Source of the DNA: Anaerolineae bacterium
GTDB taxonomy: Bacteria > Chloroflexota > Anaerolineae > Aggregatilineales > J027
Reading direction: 5' to 3'
Length of the DNA: 64,000 nt
NCBI GenBank assembly: GCA_019913005.1
Contig: JAIOHL010000078.1
Location: 62,001 to 126,000 of the forward strand
Below the pieces are notes generated by a model. That model saw only the letters and a program-made list of their open reading frames with translations. It did no database searches and had not been told where the DNA came from. Positions 11,715 to 20,752 of this stretch are shown here, piece by piece; the stretch's first letter is position 1, and each line of letters starts with the position of its first letter. The position numbers were made by a program, and so were the translations under genes.

Positions 11715-12311
11715 TCACGGCGCATACCCCAAGCGTGCTTCCAGTTTCGCTTTGACTTCGGGCCATTCCTCATCGGTGACACTAAAATAGACCGAATGGC
11801 GATAATGACCGTCGGGCATGATATAGTGATTGCGCAGCACGCCCTCCCGTTTTGCGCCGATTTTTTCGATAGCCCGCTGGCTCTGCAAATTACGCGAATC
11901 GGTTTTGAGTTGCACGCGGATGGCTTTGAGATTTTCAAAGGCATGACGCAATAGCAAATATTTGGCTTCGGGATTAATCGCTGTGCTCTGATGCGTTTTG
12001 CCAATCCATGTGCTGCCGATTTCGAGACCGCGATGGGCCGGACGGATTTCCATAAAGGTCGTCACACCGACAGGCTGATTAGTTGCAACCTCGACTTGGC
12101 AAAAGGGGCACATATCGGGAACCGCCAGCAGATTTTGCAGATATTTCCGAAAGCCCGCTAGTGTCCATTCGGCGGGGACAGAGGCAAAATATTGAAAGGT
12201 ATCGGGCGACACGGCCTGCCATAACCCTTCGGCGTGGCGGTCAATGGTGAGAGGTTCAAGTTGCACAGCGCGTCCGGTTAAGGTCACAGGTGTTACCCAC
12301 GTTTGGCTCAT
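11715..12311 (-). CDS. GNAT acetyltransferase (RimJ/RimL type)
   Basis: A 198-residue protein of RimJ/RimL type: the N-terminal LTGRAVQLEPL strand, GLEIGSTWIG in the middle, NPEAKYLLLRHAFENL, a KTDSRNLQSQRAIEKIGAKREG helix-strand that binds acetyl-CoA, and the YFSVTDEEWP end. Such enzymes acetylate N-terminal or small amine groups with acetyl-CoA; the acceptor is unknown. The frame can begin at TTG 12323, but that codon overlaps the GAGGA ribosome site of the ATG at 12311, which I prefer. It is 12 bases after the TIR gene and probably the last gene of that transcript. Confidence 0.88.
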   Translation of the reverse strand: MSQTWVTPVTLTGRAVQLEPLTIDRHAEGLWQAVSPDTFQYFASVPAEWTLAGFRKYLQNLLAVPDMCPFCQVEVATNQPVGVTTFMEIRPAHRGLEIGSTWIGKTHQSTAINPEAKYLLLRHAFENLKAIRVQLKTDSRNLQSQRAIEKIGAKREGVLRNHYIMPDGHYRHSVYFSVTDEEWPEVKAKLEARLGYAP

Positions 12312-12323
12312 AATTGTCCTCAA

Positions 12324-13057: not shown

Positions 13058-13567
13058 TTAATCGTAAAATTTCATTGGCACATCAAGTGCAAAAATGATT
13101 TTTTCAAAGGCGTCAATATCTTCTTGAGATTTAAAGGCATCAGCCGGAATCCAGTCAATCATCCGTCGTTGATAGAGCAAGTAGGATTCATCTGTGACGA
13201 CCAGTCTACGATATTCTGACCAGTGTGTTTTAGAGGACTTGCCTTTATCAACCTGACGTGCAACATGCTCCGAGTCAATGACATAAATGATTGACCTTTC
13301 AAATGCTCCACTTGTTCGCAAAGCATAATTGTCGGCCCATTCCTTAAACTTTCTCAGCGCAAAGAGAATCAACGTTATTACAACGAATCCTTGTGTAAGC
13401 GTTAGTACGGCTTGGAGGTCGCTATTGGGAAGAAGCGCTATAACCACAACAGTTAGTATGCCAATCCATATTTTTCCAATATGTCTTTGATAGGCTGGCT
13501 TACCCGTATCGCTGAGTTTTTTGACATCATCCGGTGTCAACCGAACAGGTTTAGTAATGATCGTCAT
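13058..13567 (-). CDS. Two-TM YcxB-like membrane protein
   Basis: A 169-residue protein with a basic start, two close hydrophobic segments at about residues 33-52 and 56-72, and a C-terminal soluble domain with WSEYRRLVVTDESYLLY and WIPADAF, the pattern of the YcxB-like C-terminal domain (PH-like fold). It lies 9 bases after the STAND-like gene and 20 bases before the TIR gene, so the three are likely co-transcribed. YcxB-like proteins are otherwise of unknown role. In this setting a membrane sensor or effector is possible but unproven. Confidence 0.75.
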   Translation of the reverse strand: MTIITKPVRLTPDDVKKLSDTGKPAYQRHIGKIWIGILTVVVIALLPNSDLQAVLTLTQGFVVITLILFALRKFKEWADNYALRTSGAFERSIIYVIDSEHVARQVDKGKSSKTHWSEYRRLVVTDESYLLYQRRMIDWIPADAFKSQEDIDAFEKIIFALDVPMKFYD

Positions 13568-13576
13568 GGCCTAACC

Positions 13577-15967
13577 CTAAGTATTGGCCTCATACGCGGC
13601 TTGGGCGTAGACCTGCAAATCGCTTTCAATAGGAGCAAAAGTGTACCCTTCCCGTATTAAGCGATCATAACGGCCTTTGGCACGTCCCAAAAAACGCAGG
13701 GCATCATCGGAGGGGTCAAGGTCTACCGAGGCTTCTAACAGCCGGATGGCCTGTGGCAGTTGACCAGCATCGGTCAAAAGCAACCTCCCCAAGTCGAGGG
13801 TGATTTGGGTGATGGAGGCCCGATCTCCGGCAACGAGTGCTAAATAAAGCGCCTGCCGACTATAATAGATAGCCCAATCGTAATAGCTCTCGGCTTCGGC
13901 GACAAAGGCGAGGTTGGTTAATTGGAAACGTTCATCCTCAATATCACCCATTTCACGGGCGATTTGCAGCGCCAGCATGTGACGTTGACCTGCTTCTTTC
14001 CAGCGACCCATACGACCAAAGGCCGTGCCGAGATTGCCTAATGCGCGTCCCTGTAAATCACGGCGCCCAACCTGCTCAAAACGAGCAGCAGATTGAGCCA
14101 GCACAATCGTAGCCTCCTGAAAATCGCCCTTGTCTAAGAGGGTCGTGGCGAGTTTGCCCTGTGCTAACCCAATGGCTACGGCATCCCCCGATTTTTCAAG
14201 TATCTCGACTGCTTCCTGATAGGTTTTCAGGGCATTGTCATAGTTACCCTCTAGAACAGAGGCATCGCCCATCACCGTGACAATCCGCCCTTTGCGACCC
14301 GGATAGTGTTCACCGTTAATCATCTCGATGGCATGTTGGGCGGCTTCAATTGCCTGTTGGGGTTCGTTTAAAGTCAGGAGTACCGCCGCCAAATTTTCGT
14401 AAATCATCAAACGCCGACTGTCATCGCCTGACTCTTGGCTGAGGGTGACAGCCAATTGATATTTGGGTACGGCGAGTTCGGGTTGCTTATGGCGGGTATA
14501 CCAATCGCCCAACGCCATTGCCAATTTAAGCGCATGTGCCCGATTGCTGTTCGCAGTGGCTTCTTCGAGGGCAATTTCAAGGGTCTCCCGCGACAGGGTG
14601 CGGATGGCCTCGGTGTCAATCACCATACGAGTCGGTTCATCGGGTGGGAGAGGCGGTAAATCGGGTGGCAGGGTCTTAAATTCTTGAGTCGCTTCCGGCA
14701 CAAAGGGCTTAATAGATTGTCCCGGTTTTTCAGATTGGCTCGTCAGCAGTCGCCCCAACAGTGCATAAAATCCTTGATAGCCGCGTGCGTGGATGACATT
14801 TTGAGTGCCATGCTGTCCCAATAGTTTAAATAGGGTCTCCAGCGTATCAAATTGCTGGGTGGTGGCGGCGTAACGGGCTGTACCCCATAGATTATCCATC
14901 TCGCGTGCCAGATGGTCATAGGCGGTGGGATCAGGTTCACCCGCGTGCAGCTTCACAAATTTCATCGTATTGTTCAAAATGCGGTTGCGGGTGGCCTCTA
15001 ATTTGTTTTGGGCCTGCAAACGTGAACGGGCAAATGTCCGTGCCAAATCATGAACCCTATAAAAGGGCGGGTGGTCGGCGAGGCGAACTTCGTCACAAAA
15101 TCCATGATTGACAAGGTGTTGAAGAATCCCCGGTAGGGTGCGTTCTGACACTCCACTGATCGCGCTTAATAATGGAATGCCAATGCGGTCAGTGAATAAT
15201 GATCCCAGCAGCAAAAATAGGCCCTGTGCTGGCGCATCCAATAGTCCATAGCCCGCTGCCAATACGCCTAATGTCCGGTTTTCGGGGCCGACAGGGGTTT
15301 CGGGCAACAGGCTGGTAAAATGCGTTTGGGTGACATTGGCATTCGTGATTTGTTTGGCCGCCATCACAAGTCCAAGAGGATGCCCTTGAATGTAATGCAG
15401 GAACGGCGCAAGCAGAGCAGTGCGGGTTTGTTCATCTAACTGGGCGGCATGGCGATAAAACTGTTCACTGTCTTTGTCGTTCAGTTTGTCTAACTGAAAA
15501 ATTGTCCATTGGCCGTCTACTGGGACGCCGCTGGTAATCATAACTGGGTGATGAGGGGGGATACACTGCTTCAGAAATTGGGTAATCACCCCAACCGACA
15601 ATGGCCCATCTAAAACCAGCAGGGGGCGATTTTGCTCCAACAGGGCCTGCGCCATATCCAGTTGGGTGGGGACATCATCGGTTGCTAAGGCCGAAATCCC
15701 ATAGGTGCGTGCCACCCGATTGGACAGCATGAGTACATCGTCATAATAGACCGGAAACCACAACACACCGCCGGGGCGCTCTACAAACTGCGCGGCGACA
15801 CTGGCAGCCAACCCACGCCGCCCAATTCCTGATGCTCCATAGAGCCAAACGACATCCCCCGCCGCTACCAAATCACGCAGGCGTTTCAGTTCACCCGCTC
15901 GGCCAAAAAGCGGATTAGGGGGTGTGACGGGCAGCACCTCAACCGAATGAATGGGTTTTTCCAGCAT
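13577..15967 (-). CDS. STAND/NB-ARC-like protein with TPR repeats and degenerate P-loop
   Basis: A 796-residue protein. Residues 18-290 resemble an NB-ARC/MalT-type module: NPLFGRAGELKRL, then GASGIGRRG where a P-loop GxxxxGKT should be (residues 44-52), then LLVLDGPLS (Walker B place) and VMITSGVP (sensor 1 place). A winged-helix-like section follows (about 290-340). Residues 440-780 form about eight TPR units (for example LAMALGDWYTRHKQPELAVPKYQLAV and ALGNLGTAFGRMGRWKEAGQRHMLAL). The P-loop Lys and Thr are both replaced, and the sensor Arg is Gly, so ATP hydrolysis is doubtful. It heads a probable operon with the YcxB-like and TIR genes. Confidence 0.82.
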   Translation of the reverse strand: MLEKPIHSVEVLPVTPPNPLFGRAGELKRLRDLVAAGDVVWLYGASGIGRRGLAASVAAQFVERPGGVLWFPVYYDDVLMLSNRVARTYGISALATDDVPTQLDMAQALLEQNRPLLVLDGPLSVGVITQFLKQCIPPHHPVMITSGVPVDGQWTIFQLDKLNDKDSEQFYRHAAQLDEQTRTALLAPFLHYIQGHPLGLVMAAKQITNANVTQTHFTSLLPETPVGPENRTLGVLAAGYGLLDAPAQGLFLLLGSLFTDRIGIPLLSAISGVSERTLPGILQHLVNHGFCDEVRLADHPPFYRVHDLARTFARSRLQAQNKLEATRNRILNNTMKFVKLHAGEPDPTAYDHLAREMDNLWGTARYAATTQQFDTLETLFKLLGQHGTQNVIHARGYQGFYALLGRLLTSQSEKPGQSIKPFVPEATQEFKTLPPDLPPLPPDEPTRMVIDTEAIRTLSRETLEIALEEATANSNRAHALKLAMALGDWYTRHKQPELAVPKYQLAVTLSQESGDDSRRLMIYENLAAVLLTLNEPQQAIEAAQHAIEMINGEHYPGRKGRIVTVMGDASVLEGNYDNALKTYQEAVEILEKSGDAVAIGLAQGKLATTLLDKGDFQEATIVLAQSAARFEQVGRRDLQGRALGNLGTAFGRMGRWKEAGQRHMLALQIAREMGDIEDERFQLTNLAFVAEAESYYDWAIYYSRQALYLALVAGDRASITQITLDLGRLLLTDAGQLPQAIRLLEASVDLDPSDDALRFLGRAKGRYDRLIREGYTFAPIESDLQVYAQAAYEANT

Positions 15968-16026: not shown

Positions 16027-16281
16027 CTAGTTGTTCTCTGGCGGTAGCACCGATGGAAGTTCGCTTTCGGGCACGTCTTTCCATTTCAGGCCTTCTTCGG
16101 GCAGCAGCACCGGAATGCCATCCCGAATGGGATATTTATAACCAGAATCGTCACAGACCAGCCACATATTGTTGACCAAACGCAGGCGTCCGGGATCATC
16201 CCCTTTGGTTTTGTCATGCACGCCGACTGGACAGCGGAGGATATTCAATAAGTCTTCGGAAATTGGCGCTTGATTGCCCAT
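16027..16281 (-). CDS. Trm112-family small protein
   Basis: An 84-residue protein with the Trm112/DUF343 pattern: ISEDLLNILRCPVG at the start, a middle NNMWLVCDDSG strand and YPIRDGIPVLLPEEG. Trm112 proteins act as zinc-bound activators of methyltransferases in eukaryotes and archaea; bacterial members are short and of uncertain role. Only two Cys (CP and VCDD) are visible instead of the four of zinc-binding forms. The frame opens at 16326, but the ATG at 16281 starts the conserved part and has AAGGA upstream, though at 11 bases. It stands alone between divergent or unrelated neighbours. Confidence 0.72.
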   Translation of the reverse strand: MGNQAPISEDLLNILRCPVGVHDKTKGDDPGRLRLVNNMWLVCDDSGYKYPIRDGIPVLLPEEGLKWKDVPESELPSVLPPENN

Positions 16282-16418
16282 GAAAATAGCCATCCTTCTC
16301 TGGTGAGTTTCAAAAGTCGTTTTCAATTATACAAAAATTGTGCAAAATTACTCGTCTCTGTACAAAGGTGTGGCAAAATTAGAAGTTGAAAAATGGTTGA
16401 GATTTCGGTTTAATTCAG

Positions 16419-16891: not shown

Positions 16892-16995
16892 CACCCTTCG
16901 GTTTTAGCTTATTAGCACAAGAATATCCCACCTACGGCGTGGCCTTTGACGATGGGACACGCTGCTTTCTGTCACGTTTCTTTTCGGAGGCTTTC

Positions 16996-19320
16996 ATGAC
17001 TAACCTGTTCCGGCGTACCCTCCATGCGGCGTTACTTTTGACGCTGGTATTGATGGCAGGGTTGCCTACTTATCAAACCCGCACCACCTTTGCACAAGAT
17101 GATGGCGCTAGTGAAGTCGTCGTTGCGGGGTCACGCTATGTCCAAGACCTGCTGCAAAAGTTAGTAGATAATTACAACGCGGCGGCAGAAAACGATACAA
17201 CTGTTCAATTTGATGCACAAGGTAATGCCGACGGCTTTACACGGCTGTGCGGTGGCGTTGTGGATGCGGTCATGGCGACTGAACCAATTTCCGATGAACA
17301 ACTGCTGGTTTGCGATACCAATGCGGTGGAATTTGTGGAATTGGTGCTGGCCTATGAAGCGTTGGTGCTTGTCCCCAGCGCAGGTGCCCCAGCCACTTGT
17401 ATTGACCAATCCAGCCTGCCCAGTGTGCTCGGTGAGGGTGGGGCAGCCCAACTCAATTGGTCAGTTATCAACCCAACGGCGACCCCCGGTGACATTACTC
17501 TGTATGGGCCAAATCCTGAAAGTCAAACAGTCGTCGGTTTCCTTGCCTCGCTGCTGCCAGACGCGCCGCGCACGGATTACACCCAATATGAATCCCCTCA
17601 AGCGGTTGTAGATATACTCAAAGACCCCGCCAGCATGGGTGTGGCATTTATGACGTTTGCTGAGTGGTCTGGGGTTGAAGATCAAGGCGGTTTGACGCCC
17701 TTACAAGTCAGCACCGATCAATTGCTGAACTGTCTTTCGCCGGATGAGAGCACGATTGCTGCCGGAACATATCCCTTCCGCCGCCAATTGATGCTGTATG
17801 TCAATGTGAATGCCTTCGACAAAGCCAATTTCAGCGAATTTGCTAAATATGCGGTGGGTGCGGATGGTCTGTCAGTGGTGGATGATGAATTTAACTTCAC
17901 CGTGCCTGTGCAAGCAGTGTTGGATCGCGGCCTTAACAATATCACTGGCCCGATTGTAGGACGTACATTTACCCGCCCGAATTCCCCGGTGACACTGAAT
18001 ACTGCTGCTGAGGGTTCGGTGACCATCAACGGTACGGGTTTGGCATCTACCGCAACTAAGCCCATTTATGATTCCTTTACGGGAACCTATACCAACGTTG
18101 ACCTAACAGTTGGTGCGATGACCAATGACCAAAGTTGGGGTGCGTTCTGCGCTGGGACAGCCTCGGTGATTCAAGTCAATCGCCCTCCGTCCGAAGCTGA
18201 GTTAGCCACTTGCTCCGAAAACAACATTGACCCCTATACCATCAATTTTGGCGCTCAGGCAGTGGTGCTGGTTGTAAAGGCCGATTCTGACTTGCCCATT
18301 TGTCTGGATTACAGCCAATTGTCGGCCATGTTGGTGCAAAATGTTTTGGATCCGCAGGCTGGCACACTGAATCCTGATGCCACTGCCGAAGCAACAGAAG
18401 TCACCCCAACTGAAGTTCCTACCGAAGCTGTCACGGAAGTTCCGACGGCTGAACCGACGGAAGTTGCTACGGAAGCGCCTGCACCGGAACCCACCGAAGC
18501 GCCGATTGTTCCGCTTGACCCGACCAAACTGCAAGGGCCAGCACGTTGGAACGAAATCAATCCTGAGTGGCCTGATCGCCAACTGTTGGTGCTGTCTCCT
18601 AGCTTGGGCGCGATTGAAACCGACTTGATTTTGGCGACTGTAACCAATGGTCAACAAGTGCTCCGTCGCACCGATGCTCCCATTGTTCAAATGTCGCCTG
18701 TCAACACCCCCAATGCATCAGGGGCGACGGATATTCCCGATTTGCAATATCGTGTTGGCGCTACCGCACATTTTGATGGCGCGATTACTTATGCCCTGTG
18801 GACGGCTTTCCAATCCGACCCCGGCAAAGATGGAGTACGGGTTGTCCAGATTGACGCTGGTAATGGGTGCATTGAACCGACAGCCGAAACCATTCTTGAC
18901 GGCAGCTATCCGTTCTCCTATAGCTCGATGCTGGTCTTCTCGAAGGCAGCGTTGAGTGATGATGTGGTGGCCGCGCTCTTATGGCAGGCTTTTAACAGTG
19001 ATGCGCTGATTCAGATTGAAACCCTCGGTCTCGTTGGGTTTGATCGGGCCGCATTGGAAGCCGAACGCGAAAATATCTTCACGATGATTGAAGAAGCGCG
19101 TCGTGCCGCCGCAGAAGCCGATCCTGATGCCGAATCCGGCGATGCCACCCCAGAAGCAACTGAGGAAGTGACTGAAACGCCTACTGAAGTGCCTACCGAA
19201 GAACCTACGGAAACGGCAACTGAGACCGCAACCGAAGTTCCCACTGAGATTCCAACCGAGGTACCGACGGAGCTACCAACGGTTGAACCTACTGAAGCCC
19301 CAACTCAGGCGGCTCAATAG
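16996..19320 (+). CDS. Secreted double periplasmic-binding-like protein with PTE-rich insert and tail
   Basis: A 774-residue secreted protein. A signal peptide (residues 1-34, ending TTFAQ) precedes a PstS-like binding domain (about 35-350; VVVAGSRYVQDLLQKL and CGGVVDAVMATEPI resemble phosphate-binding-protein segments). A second such domain lies at about 360-715. A Thr/Pro/Glu-rich stretch (about 461-505) interrupts the second domain, and another forms the C-terminal tail (about 718-774). Several Cys pairs could form disulfides. The frame opens at 16939, but the ATG at 16996 follows CGGAGG perfectly. No ABC transporter genes are adjacent, so ligand capture or sensing at the cell surface is possible. 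The ligand is unknown. Confidence 0.8.
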   Translation: MTNLFRRTLHAALLLTLVLMAGLPTYQTRTTFAQDDGASEVVVAGSRYVQDLLQKLVDNYNAAAENDTTVQFDAQGNADGFTRLCGGVVDAVMATEPISDEQLLVCDTNAVEFVELVLAYEALVLVPSAGAPATCIDQSSLPSVLGEGGAAQLNWSVINPTATPGDITLYGPNPESQTVVGFLASLLPDAPRTDYTQYESPQAVVDILKDPASMGVAFMTFAEWSGVEDQGGLTPLQVSTDQLLNCLSPDESTIAAGTYPFRRQLMLYVNVNAFDKANFSEFAKYAVGADGLSVVDDEFNFTVPVQAVLDRGLNNITGPIVGRTFTRPNSPVTLNTAAEGSVTINGTGLASTATKPIYDSFTGTYTNVDLTVGAMTNDQSWGAFCAGTASVIQVNRPPSEAELATCSENNIDPYTINFGAQAVVLVVKADSDLPICLDYSQLSAMLVQNVLDPQAGTLNPDATAEATEVTPTEVPTEAVTEVPTAEPTEVATEAPAPEPTEAPIVPLDPTKLQGPARWNEINPEWPDRQLLVLSPSLGAIETDLILATVTNGQQVLRRTDAPIVQMSPVNTPNASGATDIPDLQYRVGATAHFDGAITYALWTAFQSDPGKDGVRVVQIDAGNGCIEPTAETILDGSYPFSYSSMLVFSKAALSDDVVAALLWQAFNSDALIQIETLGLVGFDRAALEAERENIFTMIEEARRAAAEADPDAESGDATPEATEEVTETPTEVPTEEPTETATETATEVPTEIPTEVPTELPTVEPTEAPTQAAQ
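18379..18510 (+). repeat. PTE-type low-complexity repeat inside the coding sequence
   Basis: Degenerate repeats encode Thr-Glu-Val-Pro/Ala units, about 44 residues. The stretch falls between two beta-alpha segments of the second binding domain. Confidence 0.75.
19150..19315 (+). repeat. PTE-type low-complexity repeat at the C-terminus
   Basis: Repeated Thr-Glu-Val-Pro-type codons encode the last 55 residues. No sortase motif or membrane segment follows. Confidence 0.75.
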
Positions 19321-19343
19321 ATAAAATCGCAAGGATATAACAA

Positions 19344-19375
19344 GGGCGGGCTAATGGCCTGCCTTTTTTATTTTT
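19344..19375 (+). terminator. Terminator after the large substrate-binding-like gene
   Basis: GGCGGGC and GCCTGCC form a 7-base stem (one G-T pair) with a 5-base loop, followed by TTTTTTATTTTT. Confidence 0.85.
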
Positions 19376-19402
19376 GCAAAGCCTTTTGGTTTGTTAGATA
19401 AT
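19374..19402 (+). promoter_or_regulatory. Possible promoter of the second substrate-binding-like gene
   Basis: TTGCAA (19374-19379), a 17-base spacer and GATAAT (19397-19402) lie 40 bases before the ATG. The -35 overlaps the T-tract of the terminator. Confidence 0.45.
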
Positions 19403-19441
19403 GTTTTCCAAAACACCCATCCAATCAGCGAGGAATTTCTG

Positions 19442-20752
19442 ATGCGCGGTGCAAATCTACGGTTGTTGTTGCTTTGCCTGCTGGTCTTGACTTTGATGCC
19501 TATAGAGTCGGTTAATATACGACCTGTTTTTGCTCGTCAATCGGCACCATTTGCGGTAGTGGCGAACGATGCTCTTGCCGAACGGGTAAGTCGTGCGCTT
19601 ATTGATGCCTATCCCTATGGCGGATTTGAGACACGGCGCAGTTCGGAGTCAACTCTCACCAATTTGTGTGCGGGTGAATTTTTGGTACTTGCCACAACGA
19701 CCCCGCCAACGGCTGAAGAATTTGCGGATTGTCCTACCGCTGTAGAGCTTATTGTGGCAATTGATGGCTCGGTGGTTATTATTTCGACACAGGTAGATTT
19801 TTTGCTTTGTCTTGAGACCGACCAATTAAAAACCCTCTTTGGCACAAATGGCCCGCGTGATGCCGAAACATGGAATCAATTGAATCCAGACTTCCCAGAG
19901 CGGCGTGTCAGCGTTTTTGCGACCAACGATCAAGACGTGGAAGATTTCTTTTTTCAGCGCGTGATTGGTGAAGACAGCGGTCAGCGGCCCGGTATTGAGG
20001 CGTTTGGCGACGAACCCTATCGTCAAATTAATACACGGCAGGGTGGGATTGGTTTTGTACCATTGGTCGAATATTTTAGTAGTCCACCCACCTACAGCGT
20101 CGTGCCCTTAAATAACGGGACGAGCTGCCAATTGCCGACAGAACGTACCATCGCGGAAGGCGATTATCCGGCTGCTGGCCCAGTTTATTGGTATATTAGG
20201 CAAGATTCTTCGTTGCCAGTTTCGGAAATCTCTACCCTGCTGGCGTTTGTTTTTGGCGAGGGTGGTGCTGCCGCCATTCAATCAGCCGGAGGATGGTCGG
20301 CTCCATCTGATTTGACCAGCCTCTCGTTACGTAATCTTCAATACGGGATGGCAGGCCCGGTGTTGTCTGGTGATAGCGGCCCTGATTTTGTGGTGCGCTT
20401 GACGTGGGAAACCAGCCATGATCTAGATTTAGGTCTCTATTTACCGGGCGGTGCCGAAGTCAATTTTACCAATCCCGCCGCACCGGGATTCTATCGCCAA
20501 TCGGAAAGCGGGAATGACTATTGCTCAACATCCGCTGCCAGTCCGCAAGAGCAGATTATCGCTGTAGATGGAATCGCGTATCCTACCGATTATTTGGCCT
20601 ATGTTCAGCTTTCGTTATCGTGTGGAAATGAAGAAACCACCGCTGCCTTTACCGTAGAATTTTTGATTGATGGGCAGGTTGTGGACTCAGCAACAGGCAG
20701 TATTGGAGAGGGTGAAAATCCATTTGTGGTAACGTTTAGTTATCCGGGTTAG
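19442..20752 (+). CDS. Secreted substrate-binding-like protein with C-terminal DUF2135-like domain
   Basis: A 436-residue paralogue of the preceding gene product. The signal peptide covers residues 1-34. One PstS-like domain follows (about 35-295) with LCAGEFLVLATTTPPTAEEF and WNQLNPDFPERRVSVFA, which mirror the first protein. A beta domain at about 310-436 starts FVVRLTWETSHDLDLGLYLPGG, the pattern of DUF2135/YfaP-type domains. The ATG at 19442 follows AGGA and begins the signal peptide; the open frame upstream to 19391 is not used. It lacks the PTE inserts. No transporter genes accompany it. A role in sensing or adhesion is inference. Confidence 0.78.
   Translation: MRGANLRLLLLCLLVLTLMPIESVNIRPVFARQSAPFAVVANDALAERVSRALIDAYPYGGFETRRSSESTLTNLCAGEFLVLATTTPPTAEEFADCPTAVELIVAIDGSVVIISTQVDFLLCLETDQLKTLFGTNGPRDAETWNQLNPDFPERRVSVFATNDQDVEDFFFQRVIGEDSGQRPGIEAFGDEPYRQINTRQGGIGFVPLVEYFSSPPTYSVVPLNNGTSCQLPTERTIAEGDYPAAGPVYWYIRQDSSLPVSEISTLLAFVFGEGGAAAIQSAGGWSAPSDLTSLSLRNLQYGMAGPVLSGDSGPDFVVRLTWETSHDLDLGLYLPGGAEVNFTNPAAPGFYRQSESGNDYCSTSAASPQEQIIAVDGIAYPTDYLAYVQLSLSCGNEETTAAFTVEFLIDGQVVDSATGSIGEGENPFVVTFSYPG

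Follow-up and report, generated by a model that had tools for sequence, protein, structure and literature searches.

A gene for an NB-ARC-like protein with C-terminal TPRs, here called P0001, lies on the minus strand of the window, that is, of the whole 64,000-nucleotide stretch of DNA that was analysed. In g1, the genus to which the window belongs, it is part of a tight run of genes on one strand, in the order Trm112-like, NBD-TPR, YcxB-like, TIR and GNAT, followed by an Fe-S oxidoreductase gene. The main genes of this run are as follows.

16027..16326, minus strand: Trm112p-like gene, directly upstream of the P0001 gene
13577..15967, minus strand: NB-ARC-like/winged-helix/TPR protein P0001, 796 aa (open frame, profiles)
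13058..13567, minus strand: YcxB-like gene, directly downstream of the P0001 gene
12324..13037, minus strand: TIR-domain gene, downstream of the YcxB-like gene
11715..12323, minus strand: GNAT acetyltransferase gene, downstream, present in 5/5 g1 genomes

Only 9 bp separate the NBD-TPR gene from the YcxB-like gene, and 20 bp the latter from the TIR gene. A Trm112p-like gene stands directly upstream, on the same strand, at 37 of the 93 loci with room for it (41/101 before the removal of eight duplicate loci, four of them positive); these loci belong to families f1 (the window's own), f2 and f4, and none to f5 or f8. The YcxB-like gene is found in three of the five g1 genomes (window, L061 and L063), the other two copies being 30–36% identical to that of the window. 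In the same loci the genes that flank it are 94–97% identical, and comparison of these sequences suggests fast change or replacement of one gene within a conserved operon. In genome G007, also of f1, the Fe-S gene directly follows the NBD-TPR gene. Beyond the Trm112p-like gene, positions 16939–20752 on the plus strand encode two consecutive PBP-like (substrate-binding) proteins (Pfam PBP_like_2), the first of which contains long TEVPTE-type low-complexity stretches.

Domain architecture and motif residues of P0001

Two regions were delimited in the protein.

14753..15961, minus strand: NBD and ARC/winged-helix part, residues 3–405 (family profile matches)
13580..14587, minus strand: TPR region, residues 461–796 (Pfam TPR_12 and others; helical repeats in AlphaFold2)

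The C-terminal half gives strong TPR matches in Pfam, and the N-terminal part alone matches only AAA_16, below the cut-off. A profile was built from the N-terminal regions of 53 family members, picked among the 97 orthologous copies described below. This profile matches APAF1 (E 4.2e-12) over profile positions 18–343, which span the NBD and the winged helix, and it also matches plant NB-ARC proteins, together with many generic AAA+ P-loop entries. In addition, 37 of the 53 members match Pfam NB-ARC at E-values up to 0.01. Since the profile matches APAF1 and plant NB-ARC proteins, P0001 can be regarded as an NB-ARC-like STAND protein with C-terminal TPRs, and the STAND-like nature proposed in an earlier note on this DNA is thereby borne out. 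When the whole protein was modelled with AlphaFold2, the TPR repeats reached a pLDDT of mostly 70–90, and the NBD part about 25–45 by blocks. Residues 3–405 modelled alone gave a mean pLDDT of 38; the input consisted of only five near-identical sequences, so the NBD model is unusable.

The residues expected to handle nucleotide are located as follows.

15812..15838, minus strand: degenerate P-loop GASGIGRRG, residues 44–52 (translation)
15815..15820, minus strand: R50 R51, at the Lys and Thr/Ser places of GK(T/S) (orthologue comparison)
15605..15619, minus strand: Walker B LVLDG, residues 117–121 (orthologue comparison)
15527..15535, minus strand: TSG at the sensor-1 place, residues 145–147 (orthologue comparison)
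15050..15052, minus strand: H306 of the MHD-like motif, RVHD (His in 96/97 orthologues)

Translation of 15812–15838 on the minus strand yields GASGIGRRG at residues 44–52, exactly as the earlier note had read it, and confirms that the P-loop Lys and Thr have given way to Arg50 and Arg51. The intact Walker A form, GxxxxGK(T/S), is thus absent from P0001. Likewise, its Walker B segment, LVLDG, carries no second acid and departs from the pattern hhhhD followed by D/E/N. H306, in turn, provides the MHD-like His that is expected of the NB-ARC/STAND class. Four paralogues in the window genome, examined at the NBD as a control, keep GKT, an hhD(D/N) Walker B and TSR. The note had also put forward TSG, in place of TSR, at sensor 1. 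The reading itself is right, but it does not set P0001 apart, as a crude window test found an Arg near this place in only 16 of the 97 orthologues. Because most orthologues are without that Arg, the argument falls, and TSG was dropped as special evidence, though the four paralogues have TSR.

The Lys of P-loop NTPases touches the beta and gamma phosphates, and their Thr/Ser coordinates Mg. P0001 has Arg at both places and is therefore unlikely to hydrolyse Mg-ATP or to work as a normal switch.

P-loop and Walker B states across the orthologous family

An order-wide protein search returned a match at E <= 1e-30 in 100 of 154 genomes, and in the window's family, f1, all ten genomes gave a match, two of them partial. 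A class-wide sample of 199 genomes gave nine with a match at E <= 1e-25, every one of them from the window's order. As sampled, then, the orthologous family appears only in this order of Chloroflexota, with weaker relatives possible elsewhere; the named relatives are Chloroflexota metagenome assemblies. In total, 108 loci were read, and removal of eight duplicates (L082–L089) and three partial loci (L069, L071 and L123) left 97 orthologues. In a gene tree of these 97 copies, f1, f2, f4, f5 and f8 each group with starred support (SH-aLRT, quick method), a pattern that, as far as the gene tree alone can tell, fits vertical inheritance. A literature search returned no description of this NB-ARC/TPR family, which is no proof that none exists.

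Outside f1, the P-loop Thr/Ser is kept in 89/89 copies and the Lys in 85/89, the four exceptions reading GRT. This exchange of Lys for Arg with retention of Thr arose independently in two lineages (L074, L078, L079 and L142), in three of the five g8 genomes plus G046. Position 50 is therefore Lys or Arg in 97/97 orthologues compared. Within f1, the P-loop takes several forms. GRR occurs in 5/5 genomes of g1 and in G009, of a sister genus; the copies of the other four g1 genomes share 86.7–96.9% protein identity with that of the window, and the G009 copy 45–46%. G007 reads GKR and G006 reads GKT. In G008, the P-loop place reads GATGHGSHA, with GSH for GKT; this copy comes from a single incomplete genome and sits on a frameshifted 3.2-kb contig. 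Its NBD, on a long branch, falls outside f1 in the NBD tree, so that its orthology rests on the TPR match (55–56% over 121 residues). Finally, G005 carries on a 29.7-kb contig a 340-aa gene that matches the TPR half only, with a short-chain dehydrogenase gene directly before it. In the TPR tree, which has 35 rows, this gene falls with f1 (97, starred); the TPR-only state is known from this one genome, which is 80% complete.

Parsimony on the 97-copy tree, from which G005 and G008 are absent, requires one change for Thr to Arg and, over the whole tree, four changes between Lys and Arg. By parsimony, the loss would thus have begun with the Thr-to-Arg exchange in the ancestor of g1 and g4. The earlier note had proposed an alignment of close homologues as a check on GRR. 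The motif is indeed conserved in the five homologues with an NBD identity of 45% or more (L061–L064 and L070), and most distant ones carry an intact GK(T/S). Such intact homologues had been expected to reveal local decay or a sequence error; they exist, but they point to neither, as the loss has become fixed in a single lineage.

The Walker B Asp is kept in g1 and in G008, and is replaced by Glu in G009, Asn in G007 and His in G006. Outside f1 it is Asp in 87/89 copies and Glu in the other two. A Gly follows this position (DG) in 83 of the 97 orthologues. Taken with the rarity of the sensor-1 Arg, the DG form of Walker B raises the prospect that the whole orthologous family may be a poor ATPase, and that f1 went further.

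Selection on the NBD and the weighing of explanations

Across the five congeneric genes (ten pairs), dN/dS of the whole gene ranges from 0.023 to 0.057. Between L064, the most divergent, and the other four, it amounts to 0.042–0.047 for the NBD and 0.042–0.060 for the TPRs, ratios that are rough because synonymous sites are near saturation in the L064 pairs. The codons for R50 and R51 are CGG CGT in the window, CGA CGT in L064 and CGG CGG in L070; the first of the two is CGA in L064 vs CGG in the other four genes, with the residue unchanged. Residue 45 is Pro in L064 and Ala in the window copy. None of the five g1 genomes has an interruption of the reading frame. In the 89 copies outside f1, 38 NBD/WHD columns show a conservation of 90% or more. 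The window copy retains 32 of these, among them the three P-loop glycines, GR, W70, R87, P115, D120, W154 and H306; K50, T51, A88, S/T263, F391 and E400 are lost. The NBD/TPR distance ratios of the five families give f1 no clearly faster NBD clock (f1 1.19, f4 1.19, f2 1.25, f5 0.86, f8 0.84), which speaks against a special relaxation of its NBD.

Purifying selection, the kept residues that mark the fold and the existence of a TPR-only relative together make a scaffold for TPR-mediated contacts the most likely role. On this sequence evidence, P0001 is probably an iSTAND-like pseudo-ATPase scaffold in which the TPRs carry the function, and not an ATP-driven switch, in line with the scaffold or weak nucleotide binder that the earlier note had proposed. 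In the P0001 lineage, Arg has taken the place of both the Mg-coordinating Thr and the phosphate-binding Lys, and according to this model the NBD has probably lost the ability to cycle between on and off states with Mg-ATP. The NBD and winged helix that are left would probably serve as a scaffold or a platform for assembly, with weak Mg-independent binding at most, and the TPR superhelix would do the work through protein contacts. From these comparisons we infer that hydrolysis has been lost, that P0001 serves as a scaffold and that its TPRs work through protein contacts. Against a pseudo-ATPase scaffold stand the lack of a clearly faster NBD clock in f1 and the retention in the window copy of both the Walker B D120 and the MHD-like His. 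Furthermore, the low dN/dS of the NBD means that the domain does something, so that a retained ligand is possible, and the Arg residues at the P-loop could still be in contact with phosphate.

These observations lead to the chief rival of the scaffold, a Mg-independent ligand site made of the two Arg. The NBD would then bind ADP, ATP or another anionic ligand tightly, without Mg or hydrolysis, the Arg pair clamping the phosphates, and would act as a ligand-gated sensor or be held in a locked state. The invariably basic residue at position 50, an NBD dN/dS as low as that of the TPRs, the independent origin of GRT outside f1 and the retained D120 and H306 all agree with such a site. However, it follows from general knowledge of P-loops that Arg in place of Thr brings a bulky side chain to the Mg-binding position, and the GSH of G008 and the TPR-only gene of G005, each in a single incomplete genome, suggest that a cationic site is dispensable in some relatives; we consider this alternative unlikely, though it has to be taken seriously. 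Recent local decay, in which the gene or at least its NBD would be losing function and GRR would be a neutral mutation, could account for a P-loop that varies within f1 and for a genome without the NBD. It is largely refuted by an NBD dN/dS of about 0.05, the 32 retained columns, the open frames and the survival of the Arg pair through a synonymous codon change (CGG/CGA), and appears highly improbable. A sequencing or assembly error has nothing in its favour beyond the unusual motif; the occurrence of the same Arg pair in the window genome, four other g1 assemblies and a sixth genome from a different genus excludes chance or error for R50/R51 and reduces the probability of this explanation to a negligible level.

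A further possibility is a small conflict system in which P0001 would be a platform without a switch and the TIR protein the effector. The tight gene run with a TIR gene at the P0001 locus in 5/5 g1 genomes speaks for it, and so does the TIR protein itself, which matches the SARM1 TIR domain (E 6.9e-06) and, weakly, Thoeris models (16.3 of 21.2 bits for Pfam ThsB_TIR; E 3.5e-11 for the PADLOC ThsB match, for which no cut-off is stated). Yet the TIR gene is missing from the locus in G007 and was undetected at E <= 1e-10 in G006, G007 and G009. When neighbours within four genes on each side were clustered, the TIR cluster occurred only at g1 loci and at L145, a distant case four genes away. TIR relatives are also spread through the order (80/154 genomes, often with several copies in one genome), so that the pairing characterises the genus rather than the family. 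In addition, the NCBIfam Thoeris model gives a score far under its cut-off (ThcB4, 45.5 of 220 bits), and we regard the conflict-system platform as quite improbable. A broader and more speculative proposal combines several of these elements. It sees a graded natural series from GKT through GKR/GRR and GSH to loss of the NBD, with the GRR form of g1 as a Mg-independent anion-binding platform that would recruit the TIR enzyme of the same operon into a switch-less STAND signalling complex; taken as a whole, it seems rather improbable.

Comparison with described STAND and TIR systems

The action of NLR-like proteins is commonly attributed to a switch between ADP and ATP. With NB-ARC STAND proteins (APAF1, plant NLRs and bacterial AfsR-type regulators), P0001 has in common the order of NBD, ARC and winged helix, the GR motif, three P-loop glycines, the Walker B Asp and the MHD-like His. 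Unlike them, it has Arg for both the Lys and the Thr of the P-loop, lacks the second Walker B acid and the sensor-1 Arg, and ends in TPRs where they have WD40 or LRR. Its match to the AfsR model is weak (47.6 of 1430 bits), with the best stretch in the TPRs.

Inactive modules of this class are already in print. Two reports describe iSTAND and iSTAND2, modules of bacterial MoxR-vWA ternary systems whose STAND domain is predicted to be inactive, and a bacterial STAND pair with degraded NTP-binding motifs in one partner; their authors proposed the inactive domains as nucleic-acid receptors (PMC7159879, PMC8195603). By analogy, the receptor idea would also fit P0001, which too is a bacterial multidomain protein containing a STAND domain with eroded NTP-binding motifs. 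The difference is that the loss in P0001 occurs within one family; its other members mostly keep GK(T/S), and its gene tree is consistent with vertical inheritance. The 19 other window proteins profiled by Pfam between 1194 and 23935 include no MoxR/vWA match, so P0001 was not filed as an iSTAND system; nor does any model named iSTAND or iSTAND2 figure among the Pfam, NCBIfam and PADLOC results. As inactive bacterial STAND modules have been published, the kind is known, and the novelty lies in the graded erosion seen within a single orthologous family.

Activity without an intact P-loop also has precedents elsewhere. In one report, the helper activity of ADR1-L2 and NLRC4 is independent of the P-loop (PMC3636237). 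An intact P-loop is thus not indispensable to an NB-ARC or NACHT protein, and P0001 would be a similar case. The P-loop of ADR1-L2 was mutated in the laboratory (PMC3636237), whereas that of P0001 was lost naturally. By contrast, NRCX, a modulator NLR, keeps its P-loop, according to another report (PMC9851556). The stepwise loss of switch residues under purifying selection, together with a TPR-only relative, would offer a direct test of what an NBD does without nucleotide cycling, and the series would reveal in which part of a bacterial STAND protein the function resides.

The combination of an NBD-TPR protein with a TIR-like protein recalls the FxSxx-COOH system, in which the genes for two such proteins, FxsT and FxsC, lie side by side. 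Filing under this system was rejected, as the NCBIfam FxSxx scores are far under the cut-offs (44.8 of 300 bits for P0001 and 25.8 of 130 bits for P0002), and filing under Thoeris was likewise given up, the TIR protein being far under the cut-off of the curated model. Judged by its sequence, the TIR protein is possibly an active NADase. It has an N-terminal extension, and comparison by eye with SARM1 indicates that a CQRE segment may hold the catalytic Glu.
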